Under the pieces are notes generated by a model that saw only the letters and a program-made list of their open reading frames with translations, made no database searches and had not been told where the DNA came from. Below are positions 17,793 to 26,806 of a stretch of 41,545 bases of DNA, piece after piece (within the stretch, counting starts at the first letter, position 1; every line of letters begins with the position of its first letter). Location: positions 1 to 41,545 of the forward strand of contig NZ_QXEV01000015.1 of NCBI RefSeq assembly GCF_003550015.1, written 5' to 3'. This DNA is from Anaeroplasma bactoclasticum (GTDB lineage Bacteria; Bacillota_I; Bacilli_A; Acholeplasmatales; Anaeroplasmataceae). A program made the position numbers and the translations under genes.

Positions 17793-18428
17793 TTAAATTG
17801 CACAATAATGACTAACAATAATCCAAATACCTAAGCCAACTAAAATGATTCCGCCAATAATTTCTGAAATCATTACCTTGCCTCTTAAAAGCTTTAGAAT
17901 TTGCTTACCCAAGAATAATCCTACTAAGGATAGCATAAATGTAATGCACATAATGATAACTACATGTAACCAAATGGTTTGATTGGATGAAATTCCTGCA
18001 TGCATCGCAACACCTGTACCAAGCGCATCAATTGCGGTTGCAAATCCTAAATAGAATACCTCCTTATAGGAAAATAGCTTTTCCTCTTCGGCATCCCTTT
18101 TACCTTTTAACTTAAGTATTCCTTCAATAAACATCTTCCCACCAATGAATACAAGTAAGGCAAAAGCCATCCAGGATACGATAGTAGCCATTACATCTCC
18201 TGCACTATTACCTCCGGCTTCGCCTACAATTGTGCTAATTCCTTCTACTAGGAAATATCCAATTAAAGGCATTAATGCCTGCATAAAGCCAAAGAGAAAT
18301 GCAGTAAAAAATATTCTTTTTTTATTAATATCTGTAACAGTTAACCCTAAGGTTATCGATACAGCAAAGGCATCCATAGATAAAGCTATGCCTAAAAGAA
18401 TTACCTGTAATATTATTTGTGCTGTCAT
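17793..18428 (-). CDS. mntP: Manganese efflux pump MntP
   Basis: Exports Mn2+ across the cytoplasmic membrane. The 211-residue protein has six hydrophobic helices in two halves. The conserved acidic residues sit in ALSMDAFAVS (first helix) and ATAIDALGTGVA (mid-protein), with FGFMQALMPLIG between them. These motifs define the MntP/YebN family. There is no room for a yybP-ykoY manganese riboswitch: the upstream gap is only 76 nt. Instead a 31-bp inverted repeat covers the -10. Confidence 0.92.
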   Translation of the reverse strand: MTAQIILQVILLGIALSMDAFAVSITLGLTVTDINKKRIFFTAFLFGFMQALMPLIGYFLVEGISTIVGEAGGNSAGDVMATIVSWMAFALLVFIGGKMFIEGILKLKGKRDAEEEKLFSYKEVFYLGFATAIDALGTGVAMHAGISSNQTIWLHVVIIMCITFMLSLVGLFLGKQILKLLRGKVMISEIIGGIILVGLGIWIIVSHYCAI

Positions 18429-21496: not shown

Positions 21497-21799
21497 TTAG
21501 TTTTGTTCTAAAATATCCACAAGTGAAAGCGTAATCCTAATTTCTTTTTCATTTAAGAAAATGGAATTTTCACTAAATTCAATCTTAGTATTTTTAGGAA
21601 ATACCTGATTTTTTTCTAGACAAGCAAAAACAAAAGTTTTCTCTTGAATCATATCTAATTCCGGACGATATCCATTGGCTATTAAATCCAAATGAATTGG
21701 CATTAAAATATCAAAATAAAGCTTATTATTTTTTATATAGATTTTCTTAACCTCATATTCATTAAAATCATAATTCTTTAAAAAGAAATCTAATGTCAT
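21497..21799 (-). CDS. Hypothetical protein, 100 residues
   Basis: Not recognised. A small acidic, probably soluble protein with alternating hydrophobic strands (for example VKKIYIKNNKLYFDIL and NTKIEFSENSIFLNEKEIRI), suggesting a beta-rich fold. AAGGGG lies 8 nt before the ATG. A TATAAT box lies near 21828. It sits between the rpsU terminator and the coaX operon promoter and appears monocistronic. Confidence 0.65.
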   Translation of the reverse strand: MTLDFFLKNYDFNEYEVKKIYIKNNKLYFDILMPIHLDLIANGYRPELDMIQEKTFVFACLEKNQVFPKNTKIEFSENSIFLNEKEIRITLSLVDILEQN

Positions 21800-22925: not shown

Positions 22926-22953
22926 ATTATAGCATATTCTACCTTTATTTCAA
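22926..22953 (-). promoter_or_regulatory. Promoter of the putative esterase
   Basis: The minus strand has TTGAAA (22948-22953), a 16-nt spacer and TATAAT (22926-22931) with extended TG. It begins right after the terminator of the small-RNA candidate. Confidence 0.75.
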
Positions 22954-22956
22954 AGT

Positions 22957-23047
22957 ATATAAAAACGTTCTGGCTGAGCAGCACCAGAACGTTTTAAAAA
23001 AGGGGATGTATACTGGATTAAATCCATAGTTAGTCTTAACTAACCAT
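22957..23047 (-). ncRNA. Candidate small regulatory RNA (about 90 nt)
   Basis: Between two genes lies a complete transcription unit without a convincing ORF. A near-consensus promoter is followed by a 6-bp hairpin (GTTAGT/ACTAAC, 23029-23044), a small stem TGGAT/ATCCA (23014-23026), a single-stranded CAUCCCCUUUUUU stretch (22996-23008) and a 12-bp terminator (AAAACGTTCTGG/CCAGAACGTTTT, 22962-22995) followed by T. The C-rich stretch is complementary to Shine-Dalgarno sequences, as in RsaE/RoxS-type sRNAs of Firmicutes. A 25-codon frame from ATG 23027 lacks an RBS. It could instead be a leader of the esterase gene. Confidence 0.65.
22961..22995 (-). terminator. Terminator of the small-RNA candidate
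   Basis: A 12-bp perfect stem with a 10-nt loop and five T reading leftward. It is stronger than most gene terminators nearby. Confidence 0.8.
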
Positions 23048-23052
23048 TTATT

Positions 23053-23080
23053 ATTATATTCATTTTAAATAAGATGTCAA
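23053..23080 (-). promoter_or_regulatory. Promoter of the small-RNA candidate
   Basis: The minus strand has TTGACA (23075-23080) and TATAAT (23053-23058), both perfect consensus, with a 16-nt spacer. No ORF of substance follows before the terminator. Confidence 0.8.
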
Positions 23081-23092
23081 CAGCATTTTAAT

Positions 23093-23125
23093 AAAAAATA
23101 AAAGAAATGACAAATTGCCATTTCT
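23093..23125 (-). terminator. Terminator of the 23.1 kb membrane protein gene
   Basis: AGAAATG/CATTTCT stem (23103-23125) with a T-rich tract leftward. Confidence 0.6.
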
Positions 23126-23553
23126 CATTTTTGAATGATTAAAGCTTTCCCATTATAATGCTTCGCTTCTACTTTTGATTTTATTTGGATTTTTTCTATG
23201 AAATCCTTTGATACTACATTTGCACTTCTAAATGTCATAGATTCTACTTTGTATTCAATGACTGCTATATATTTATCTTTATTAAAACCAAACTTAGAGC
23301 TTTTTTGAAATTTATCTACCAATGTAGCCTTAATTACATCCTTTGATTTTTTACAATTTAAATAATTAATTGTAGAAGGTAGTCCTAAAAATATAGGTCC
23401 AATAGATAAAGTTATGAATAATACAAATAATACAACATATATATAATATCCACCATTGAATATGGACATCAATAAAAATGAAATTGCTAATAATATTAGT
23501 GGAATAGCTAAAATAATGTAGATTACTTCAATATAGACATTATATTTTTTCAT
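23125..23553 (-). CDS. Hypothetical two-helix membrane protein
   Basis: Not recognised. With the start at ATG 23553 it has 142 residues. Two hydrophobic helices (about residues 8-32 and 38-62) are followed by a soluble domain with strands VIKATLVDKFQ, KYIAVIEYKVES and FRSANVVSKDF. This plan resembles DUF3592-like membrane proteins, but I cannot confirm it. It overlaps the preceding GNAT-like gene by 14 nt, so it is co-translated with the 25.7-23.1 kb operon. The upstream in-frame start at 23586 would give a longer overlap. Confidence 0.7.
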   Translation of the reverse strand: MKKYNVYIEVIYIILAIPLILLAISFLLMSIFNGGYYIYVVLFVLFITLSIGPIFLGLPSTINYLNCKKSKDVIKATLVDKFQKSSKFGFNKDKYIAVIEYKVESMTFRSANVVSKDFIEKIQIKSKVEAKHYNGKALIIQK

Positions 23554-23845: not shown

Positions 23846-25684
23846 CTAAAATTTAACATAAACTAATGAATCCGTAGGATGAATAACTACATCCTTCTTC
23901 TCATCCTGATTCTCATGGAAGAATATTACATTATCGCCTCTGCATATACCTAAAAGGATATTTTCACCCTTAAAGCATTTATAGAAAGAGGATAATAATT
24001 CTGCTTTAGATTTAAAGATTAAGTCTTTATCCATTTCAATGACAGATGATGCAGGATTTACTGCGATATCAAAATCATTTGCATCAAAGGCATGGTCTGT
24101 TGTAAGTAGCTTATCAAAGAATTTCTTGGAATCCTGGTTCATCGCAAGCTGTGTAATAAGCAAGCTCATCATCTTATTAGAAATAATTGTATTATGAATA
24201 TCAAAATCTCTTATAGAAGATAAATTTCTAGAATCTAGGATTTCTGTAATATATGTCAAGTTTTCTCTTTTTGGGAATGCCTTAGATAAAGCAATCAATG
24301 TAACAAAGACATTTGCATCATAGGATTCTTCTGCAACAGAATCATCAGATAGTATTAAAACCTTCTTTTCTCCAGTAGCTTCTTTAATATCTTGAATTAA
24401 TTTATCATTTTCATCCTTATGATAATGCTTAATTGTATATTTAAATTCAGGAGATTCAGCACTTCTATTTAAATTATCTAAAATGAATTCTCTTTTTTGA
24501 TTATCTCCAATTACAAAGATACTACATGGATCATGTCTTACAGGACCCCTTGGCTTTAAAACAACGTTTGATTCATATGGAGCATTTCTTCTTTTTTGAA
24601 TTTCCTTTTCATCATTTGCTAAAACAAATAATTTATTTAATGTAACAACAGGAATTGAATTGTCATGTATCTTCATAAAATCAGATACACTCTCTTTTGA
24701 ATTTAAGGAATAGAATTCTGCACCTTCAAAGGAGAATAATTCTAAATAAACCAAAGCCATTTCTGGATCTACAATGGACTGGGCAATAATTTGTCCAATC
24801 TTTTTATTAAAGGATACTGGAATAATACTTTTATTTTTTAATGAATTAACTGTAAAGCTAATATTTTCAATTTGCTTTCTAGTTTCATCTGAATTTGTTT
24901 CAACAACAATTTGAGTATTACTCTTAATACCAAAGGAACCTAATCTTAAAATAATCTTAAGATTTAATAAATCAGAATTTAATATATCATCGTCATCATA
25001 ATCTACCATATCTTCTCTTGCCATAACTACAATTTCAGATGCCTTTTCAATAGATATATCATCTAGATTTCCTCTAAGAAGGGAATCTCCTTCTTTTATA
25101 ATTAAATTTGCTTTATATTTTTGAGTTACGTCATTCGCAAGAAATAAAGATTTAATTTCAGATTCAATATATTCCTTTGTTTGATTGGATAAAATGACAA
25201 TATTATTTTTAAAGCCTTTTTGCATTAGATTAAAAATAATATCAGGAACCTTAGAATTCCAATTTAGAATTACAAAATGATTGGATAATACAATTTTACC
25301 CTTAGCCTTACTCTTTTTATCAATATAGCTCCTTAGGCTTGTTGTAACCATAGCTACAATAGCACCACTAAATAATACCATTTCAACTACAATGGTAACT
25401 GCAGCTAAAACCATCATAGATAAATGATTTGTATCATATTCCAAAATAGAGTTTGGGGCAATCATCCATTTTACTGCAGTAACAAATGCTGCCGCAAATC
25501 TGCCCTCAAAAAAATAAGCCTCATATTTATTATTATCTATTCCAAACGCAATTAATGACACAATAAATAAAATAATAAAATTTATGATTAAAAGGGATAA
25601 CAAAGTAACCAAAAGAGGCTTTTGGTAAGTTTGCATCGTACTTTTCGCTTTTATTTTTAAAAATAAGGATTTTAAAAACTTCAT
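23846..25684 (-). CDS. CASTOR/POLLUX-type ion channel protein
   Basis: Probable ligand-gated cation channel of the CASTOR/POLLUX/SYM8 family with tandem RCK-like cytosolic domains. The start at ATG 25684 is set by AGGAGG 6 nt upstream (TTG 25705 precedes it), giving 612 residues. Helices lie at about 15-45 and 75-110 around a pore-like FVTAVKWMIAPNS segment. Then come the family signature LSNHFVILNWNSKVPDII and two Rossmann-like domains, the second starting near CSIFVIGDNQKR. First gene of a three-gene operon. Plant homologues are nuclear-envelope channels; the bacterial role is poorly known. Confidence 0.85.
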   Translation of the reverse strand: MKFLKSLFLKIKAKSTMQTYQKPLLVTLLSLLIINFIILFIVSLIAFGIDNNKYEAYFFEGRFAAAFVTAVKWMIAPNSILEYDTNHLSMMVLAAVTIVVEMVLFSGAIVAMVTTSLRSYIDKKSKAKGKIVLSNHFVILNWNSKVPDIIFNLMQKGFKNNIVILSNQTKEYIESEIKSLFLANDVTQKYKANLIIKEGDSLLRGNLDDISIEKASEIVVMAREDMVDYDDDDILNSDLLNLKIILRLGSFGIKSNTQIVVETNSDETRKQIENISFTVNSLKNKSIIPVSFNKKIGQIIAQSIVDPEMALVYLELFSFEGAEFYSLNSKESVSDFMKIHDNSIPVVTLNKLFVLANDEKEIQKRRNAPYESNVVLKPRGPVRHDPCSIFVIGDNQKREFILDNLNRSAESPEFKYTIKHYHKDENDKLIQDIKEATGEKKVLILSDDSVAEESYDANVFVTLIALSKAFPKRENLTYITEILDSRNLSSIRDFDIHNTIISNKMMSLLITQLAMNQDSKKFFDKLLTTDHAFDANDFDIAVNPASSVIEMDKDLIFKSKAELLSSFYKCFKGENILLGICRGDNVIFFHENQDEKKDVVIHPTDSLVYVKF

Positions 25685-25714
25685 AGTGCTCCTCCTATAC
25701 TTCAATTATTAGTA

Positions 25715-25762: not shown

Positions 25763-26806
25763 TTATTTTTCTATATCCTCTTCTTTAAAATCCTCATTAT
25801 TTACTTCAAAATCCTTTGGATTTGTTTCAAATTCTTTTTTAAGTTCTTCATATTCATTTGGATTATAGGTATATGGTTCATCCATAGAATGCTTTTTTCT
25901 ATACTCATCGTATTTTATATCGCCTTCAAAATACTTACCTAAATCATCATTTTTATCTGCTTCATTTATTTTTTCTACAGCGATGATTGTTTTAATCAAA
26001 CGATAAAAACCAAATATGATAACTCCACCACCAATAATAGATAATACAATTAGCATATAATAGGCTTGAGGGTAGGCAGTATCATATGTAGAAATATCAA
26101 TACAAATATTATAACCAGTTAATTCATAAAAATGATTCATAGCTTCCTTTAATGAAGTATCATCACCTATAGAATATGTTGTATTATTAATGATTTTGAT
26201 ATCTTTTACATTATTACTATATAAAGGATTGAAATAAAGTAAATCAATACGCTCATTTAATTCCATTAAGGAAGTATTTAAGGCTTCTGCTAAGGATGAA
26301 ACCTGATATTCATACTTATTTAGATTATTATATAGCTTATTTCCAAAGAAAGAATTTTGATTACCAAACATTTGATCTATAGAATAATCCAAATTATCAC
26401 CTACAATAGGCATATAATCTAATTCCTTTAAATTATCATAAGCTACTATTTCAACTAAAACATTATATTCATAATTGGAATCCTGTTGATAAACTTCACT
26501 ATAGCGATTTAAAGAATAGCTTTCTAAAGCATCTTCTGATCCTCTTAAATGAAGAGTACCAATTCCTAAGCCAACAATAAATATACCTACACATATTAAT
26601 GCGATAATACCACGAATCGCATAATATCCTCTATGTACTCTAGAATATGGTACATAAATACCACTAAAATAAAAGCCCGGTCTTATATAATAGGAATGGT
26701 GCTCTTTTCCATATATATCCCTTCTTGGCGCTCTAGGAGCACTAGAGTGACTTCCTCCAGAATGGAATCCACCATGACTAGAAGACCCTCCACCAACATG
26801 AGGCAT
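25763..26806 (-). CDS. Hypothetical membrane protein with a Gly/Ser/His-rich N-terminus
   Basis: Not recognised. 347 residues: a flexible N-terminus rich in Gly, Ser and His (residues 1-30), an aromatic segment, a helix at about 62-85, an approximately 170-residue extracytoplasmic domain with many Asn and Tyr, a second helix at about 250-275 and an acidic cytoplasmic tail. The two-helix plan recalls TPM-domain membrane proteins, but I see no clear TPM signature. AAGGG precedes the ATG. It follows the GtrA-like gene by 14 nt and ends at a strong terminator. Confidence 0.75.
   Translation of the reverse strand: MPHVGGGSSSHGGFHSGGSHSSAPRAPRRDIYGKEHHSYYIRPGFYFSGIYVPYSRVHRGYYAIRGIIALICVGIFIVGLGIGTLHLRGSEDALESYSLNRYSEVYQQDSNYEYNVLVEIVAYDNLKELDYMPIVGDNLDYSIDQMFGNQNSFFGNKLYNNLNKYEYQVSSLAEALNTSLMELNERIDLLYFNPLYSNNVKDIKIINNTTYSIGDDTSLKEAMNHFYELTGYNICIDISTYDTAYPQAYYMLIVLSIIGGGVIIFGFYRLIKTIIAVEKINEADKNDDLGKYFEGDIKYDEYRKKHSMDEPYTYNPNEYEELKKEFETNPKDFEVNNEDFKEEDIEK

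Follow-up and report, generated by a model that had tools for sequence, protein, structure and literature searches.

We interpret a short unit on the minus strand of the 41,545-nucleotide stretch of DNA analysed here (the window) as a free-standing gene, which probably encodes a trans-acting, C-rich small RNA (sRNA) of about 90 nt that would belong to a metal regulon, most likely one for iron, and act by masking Shine-Dalgarno sequences. The existence of the transcription unit is confirmed; it is self-contained and lies between two terminators and two promoters (Table 1), and its reading as a stand-alone sRNA gene at 22957-23080 is very well supported by the signals found there. An earlier note on this DNA had proposed an orphan sRNA with its own promoter, its own terminator and a C-rich seed directed against Shine-Dalgarno sequences; the proposal stands, and it is strengthened by RNAs of the same layout in related species.

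The sRNA promoter has the perfect consensus that the earlier note ascribed to it, with the -35 element TTGACA at 23080-23075, a spacer of 16 nt and the -10 element TATAAT at 23058-23053. It is the only promoter with 12 of 12 matches in a scan of the whole window, the chance level being a mean of 0.12 per Markov-shuffled window. The terminator stem (22995-22962), to which 12 bp had been assigned, has 13 bp by the scan and is followed by a T-rich tail. The next gene, an esterase gene, likewise has the promoter of its own that had been claimed for it, TTGAAA-16-TATAAT, which scores 11 of 12 and carries a TG ahead of the -10 element.

Table 1. Features of the sRNA locus and predicted targets within the window
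Feature	Position	Strand	Evidence
Sigma-A-type promoter of the sRNA, TTGACA-16-TATAAT, 12/12	23053-23080	-	promoter scan
Predicted sRNA transcript, about 90 nt	22957-23047	-	promoter and terminator positions, fold
Palindromic operator, core GTTAGT-N4-ACTAAC at 23029-23044	23028-23046	-	same box in front of relatives' feoA, ZIP, DUF3793-flavodoxin and DtxR-family genes
C-rich linker around AUACAUCCCCUUUUUU, unpaired, proposed anti-Shine-Dalgarno seed	22996-23012	-	fold; AUCCCC kept beside the terminator in relatives' box-controlled RNAs
Intrinsic terminator of the sRNA	22957-22995	-	terminator scan
Terminator of the upstream 153-aa gene, separating that gene from the sRNA unit	23102-23126	-	terminator scan
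Esterase's own promoter, without box	22926-22953	-	promoter scan
100-aa gene, predicted target; perfect complementarity over 11 nt between Shine-Dalgarno AAAAGGGGATG and the seed	21497-21799	-	pairing -17.3 kcal/mol, best of 41 window genes
Putative MntP-type manganese efflux pump, predicted target; Shine-Dalgarno AAGGGGAT complementary to the seed	17793-18428	-	PF02659, E 2e-29; pairing -15.7 kcal/mol, second best

In the predicted fold, which is as described in the earlier note, two short hairpins are followed by an open linker (GUAUACAUCCCCUUUUUU) and this by the terminator (-28 kcal/mol, z -5.2); the CAUCCCCUUUUUU portion of the linker is unpaired when the whole RNA is folded. Most of this z-score comes from the terminator, as the 5' 51 nt folded without it reach only -1.55, so that the fold alone says little in favour of a functional 5' part. 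The earlier description missed a conserved DNA palindrome at the transcription start. This operator box covers about +1 to +19 of the sRNA and coincides with hairpin 1, which is better explained as a DNA operator than as an RNA element; covariation in hairpin 1, proposed as a check, is consequently not the right test.

The first lead to the box came from weak covariance-model matches sharing the first hairpin, ATGGTTAGTTnAGACTAACTA, and hairpins of this type were found ahead of a FeoA-domain operon (genome G002) and a DUF3793-flavodoxin pair (genome G024). The exact GTTAGT-N4-ACTAAC occurs at five sites in the 2.2-Mb genome to which the window belongs, against 0.26 expected and none for the reversed control, and at 55 sites in 27 genomes of the genus, against eight for the reversed pattern. 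A -35 element with the box at the right distance was found 48 times in 55 genomes of the family (control 4) and five times in 105 genomes from other families of the order (control 17). In an uncultured Clostridia MAG (locus L333), two TTAGTNATAGCTAA palindromes, the first of them just after a TTGACA promoter, form a closely similar box, which suggests that the operator may reach beyond the family.

The genes that follow the boxes encode FeoA, ZIP transporters, DUF3793 proteins, an HMA-like protein, TetR-type regulators and DtxR-family regulators. The assignments to FeoA, Zip, DUF3793 and flavodoxin are borne out by Pfam, and in the genome of the window the flavodoxin gene follows the box-preceded DUF3793 gene. 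Four box-preceded regulators of the DtxR family each carry both iron-dependent-repressor domains according to Pfam; their nearest model in NCBIfam is MntR, with scores below its cut-offs. In genome G017 a single box lies between a DtxR gene and feoA, which are divergent. The feoA and DtxR genes of the window's own genome were not located. TetR-family regulators are also found behind the metal box at L146 (2506-2521), in G008 (L166) and in G011 (L159), in the last case beside an ABC-permease-type gene; these sites may represent an extra branch of the regulon.

Because the box precedes feoA, ZIP and DUF3793-flavodoxin operons as well as DtxR-family regulators, we take it to mark a metal regulon, most simply an autoregulated one of the DtxR type. 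The metal is most likely iron; it could instead be manganese or zinc, as the genes concerned include ZIP and MntP and the regulators are nearest to MntR. The position of the box at its start site makes it very likely that the sRNA is itself a member of this regulon.

Box-controlled RNAs in other species were found by following the sequence downstream of those boxes that have no gene immediately behind them. Five further species (genomes G010, G011, G013, G014 and G018) have such an RNA ending in AAUCCCC and a terminator, and their alignment gives a common layout in which promoter and box are followed by a variable stretch containing CU-rich runs and then by AAUCCCC and the terminator. In G011, G013, G014 and G018, feoA comes immediately after the RNA on the same strand; in G010 the RNA adjoins a ThiI-like gene. 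The window RNA has the same order of box, AUCCCCUU and terminator; it is the shortest of the set, without the CU-rich middle and the feoA neighbour of most of its longer relatives, and adjoins the esterase gene. We define this box-seed-terminator family by a promoter, a TTAGT-N4/5-CTAA-type box at the start, AUCCCC shortly before the terminator and no gene between, a plan shared by six species including that of the window.

The association of seed and box is also evident from a comparison of terminators inside one and the same set of loci. CCCC at most about 22 nt ahead of the stem was present in 4 of 14 terminators with a box upstream and in 2 of 270 without one (Fisher P 5e-5, or 7e-4 when the window case is left out), the 284 terminator-like sites coming from loci collected largely around boxes and not from a random genome sample.

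The earlier note had named absence of conservation beyond the terminator as evidence against a functional RNA. Operator and seed do recur in other species, though without an alignable sequence around them: by BLASTN and covariance model the window RNA has no significant overall similarity to the relatives' RNAs, and it can be aligned with them only in promoter, box, seed and terminator. Of the database checks suggested at the time, BLASTN of the sRNA unit against 60 relatives returned only short AT-rich or promoter/box pieces and Rfam gave no match; AUCCCC proved to be kept in the RNAs of the five other species. When 55 genomes of the family were searched with a covariance model built from the single RNA, the matches were box hairpins or due to chance, and none was a full homologue. 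Descent of the window RNA and its longer relatives from a common RNA is nevertheless plausible.

Several further candidates were rejected upon inspection. Matches to the pattern TATAAT...TCCCCTTTTT were terminator arms or had no terminator behind them. The inspected matches to a one-mismatch seed pattern other than those in G010, G011 and G018 lacked the layout, as did one beside a tRNA gene in the window's own genome, and a collection scan for the long form recovered the contigs of G014 and G018, its other matches not resembling the sRNA. Two other loci deserve mention. On the minus strand of L223 (G026:C147:25400-27300), a ZIP transporter is preceded by a box-controlled promoter, about 100 nt and a terminator-like hairpin with CCCCC in its loop, an arrangement which may represent another sRNA or a leader. 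At L165 (G024:C41, box at 2197, minus strand), a box-controlled orphan RNA contains UUUUCCCCCUU and has its terminator farther downstream, and is a weaker candidate for the box-seed-terminator family.

Synteny provides insight into the relation of the unit to its neighbours. Followed via the 619-aa gene, the gene order of the window is kept only in genome G019 (there 619-aa gene, GNAT, 146-aa gene, esterase, S21), in which the sRNA unit is absent, the gap measures 133 bp as opposed to 234 bp in the window, and the terminator of the upstream gene is directly followed by an esterase promoter, TTGAAG-16-TACAAT, at the corresponding place. The absence of the whole unit implies that it was acquired by one line, or else discarded by the other, in one piece; the presence of a separate promoter in G019 implies that the esterase does not need it. 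The 619-aa protein (23846-25705) has no Pfam or NCBIfam match, has a distant second copy with 27% identity in the same genome (G000:C7) and has relatives in several members of the genus; a 347-aa protein with a His/Ser/Gly-rich N-terminus (25763-26806) likewise has no Pfam match.

These observations bear on other explanations of the locus. As the unit is on the same strand as the esterase gene and lies 66 bp ahead of its start codon, it might be a leader or attenuator of that gene, either riboswitch-like or acting by box-controlled read-through. We consider this quite improbable, given that the esterase promoter sits after the sRNA terminator and is retained in G019 without the RNA, that the RNA opened by removal of the terminator 3' arm shows no competing antiterminator fold (z -0.04), and that the relatives' RNAs stand beside feoA or a ThiI-like gene instead of an esterase. 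A gene for a small protein can hardly be maintained: the one ATG-started frame of at least 20 codons inside the transcript, with 25 codons (23027-22950), has no Shine-Dalgarno sequence, begins between the two hairpins, crosses the terminator stem and stops past the predicted RNA end, in agreement with the earlier judgement that the roughly 90 nt hold no credible ORF. It could also be that promoter and terminator were left behind by the loss of a box-controlled gene, as a decayed feoA/ZIP-type unit that is transcribed under metal shortage and has no function. The lack of overall conservation with the relatives' RNAs, the box as the strongest conserved element and the position of such RNAs beside feoA in several genomes would all fit such an origin, which we regard as unlikely in view of the AUCCCC that five other species keep in this position ahead of the terminator despite diverged surroundings, and of the retention of a perfect promoter and a strong terminator.

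The suggested resemblance to RsaE/RoxS has to be divided into pairing mode and kinship. The former is plausible, as the unpaired linker before the terminator contains an exact CAUCCCCUUU, corresponding to the UCCC-type single-stranded seed of RsaE/RoxS, and the RsaE/RoxS model (RF01820) can be weakly aligned with the RNA from end to end. The latter did not hold: the alignment, at 18.4 bits (E 0.33-0.82 in local scans), falls far short of the gathering score of 79, the model exceeds its cut-off in none of 60 relatives' genomes, and those weak matches in relatives that were inspected look like chance. Promoter control differs as well, since the start site bears the metal-regulon box, and a true homologue of this redox and central-metabolism sRNA, too divergent to be matched by the Rfam model, is therefore highly improbable. 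The earlier note had not recognised the RNA as a known family; at the gathering threshold Rfam gave no match in the window, and FsrA was not listed in the Rfam scan even at E 10. The control element at the start site instead favours a metal-responsive sRNA comparable to FsrA, IsrR and MrsI.

The best-studied C-rich sRNAs of iron regulons use a regulator different from the DtxR type. A metal-regulon operator at the promoter, as in the iron-sparing class of RyhB, FsrA, IsrR and MrsI, is present in the window RNA. IsrR of Staphylococcus is a Fur-repressed iron-sparing sRNA of 174 nt with Fur boxes and three C-rich regions (PMC9410917). The window RNA resembles it in the operator at the promoter, the single-stranded C-rich sequence directed against Shine-Dalgarno sequences, and the stem-loops with terminator, and differs in its length of about 90 nt, its one C-rich region and its DtxR-type box; a sequence or synteny relation to IsrR was not found. 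This is in line with the statement of the IsrR authors that C-rich Shine-Dalgarno-binding sRNAs such as IsrR and FsrA share neither synteny nor sequence (PMC9410917). FsrA of Bacillus subtilis is Fur-repressed and binds Shine-Dalgarno sequences by a C-rich motif, as cited in PMC9410917. It is similar as a C-rich anti-Shine-Dalgarno sRNA of an iron regulon, and dissimilar in its Fur control and FbpABC chaperones, the window RNA being without a match in Rfam. MrsI of Mycobacterium tuberculosis has in its promoter a box for IdeR, a member of the DtxR family (PMC8628891). With about 100 nt and a promoter site for a DtxR-family regulator it is comparable, whereas it belongs to another phylum, has a different six-nucleotide seed and, according to the account in PMC9410917, is not a C-rich Shine-Dalgarno binder. 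The window RNA would thus combine the C-rich mode of IsrR and FsrA with the DtxR-type control of MrsI; the literature searches made brought up no paper on a C-rich, DtxR-controlled sRNA in the host lineage.

The open linker is complementary to AAAAGGGGAUGUA, and pairing at -15 kcal/mol or better was predicted for the starts of 3 of 41 window genes, compared with a mean of 0.3 for shuffled linkers, whose maximum in 200 shuffles was 3, so that the real count was reached at least once. Among the predicted targets in Table 1, the 100-aa gene has an orthologue in G019 with another ribosome-binding sequence, AGAGGTGACTACCATG, in a genome that has no sRNA at the syntenic locus. Elsewhere in the genome, where targets were sought by a short-seed pattern only, the start of a 2[4Fe-4S] ferredoxin gene (AAAGGGGAAATG, complementary to UCCCCUUU) and that of a gene for a POR_N-domain protein of the ferredoxin-oxidoreductase type (AAGGGGGATTGTATG) also fit the seed and are predicted targets. 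AAGGGG-N-ATG is only modestly enriched in the genome, with 113 occurrences against 68 in the control.

A possible course of regulation can be outlined from these elements. A repressor of the DtxR family, charged with Fe(II) or Mn(II), would bind the box at the start site and block initiation, and the sRNA would be made upon metal shortage. Its unpaired AUCCCCUU would then pair with Shine-Dalgarno sequences of the AAGGGGAU type and prevent ribosome binding, lowering non-essential products that use or export metal, predicted to be the 2[4Fe-4S] ferredoxin, the ferredoxin-oxidoreductase-type protein, MntP and the 100-aa protein. Meanwhile the same box would turn on feoA, metal importers and flavodoxin as an iron-free substitute; a fall in ferredoxin through the sRNA, coupled with a rise in flavodoxin through the shared box, would amount to a classic iron-sparing switch, within an iron-sparing response that would rest on a DtxR-type regulator. 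We regard an anti-Shine-Dalgarno, metal-sparing function of the sRNA as probable.

It seems that iron-sparing sRNAs evolved on several occasions and with no sequence in common. We lean, by a small degree, towards the view that a lineage of gut Bacilli possesses a separate family of metal-sparing sRNAs, C-rich and controlled by the DtxR family, which mostly stand in tandem with feoA and would have arisen independently of the Fur-controlled FsrA and IsrR; the window RNA may be the shortest form of this family, with little beyond operator, seed and terminator. Where alignment fails, such RNAs can be sought through regulon boxes behind which a terminator stands in place of a gene. If the interpretation is true, an RNA of about 90 nt made of operator, seed and terminator would represent a minimal iron-sparing sRNA, and the class would be extended to a DtxR-type regulon in gut Bacilli.
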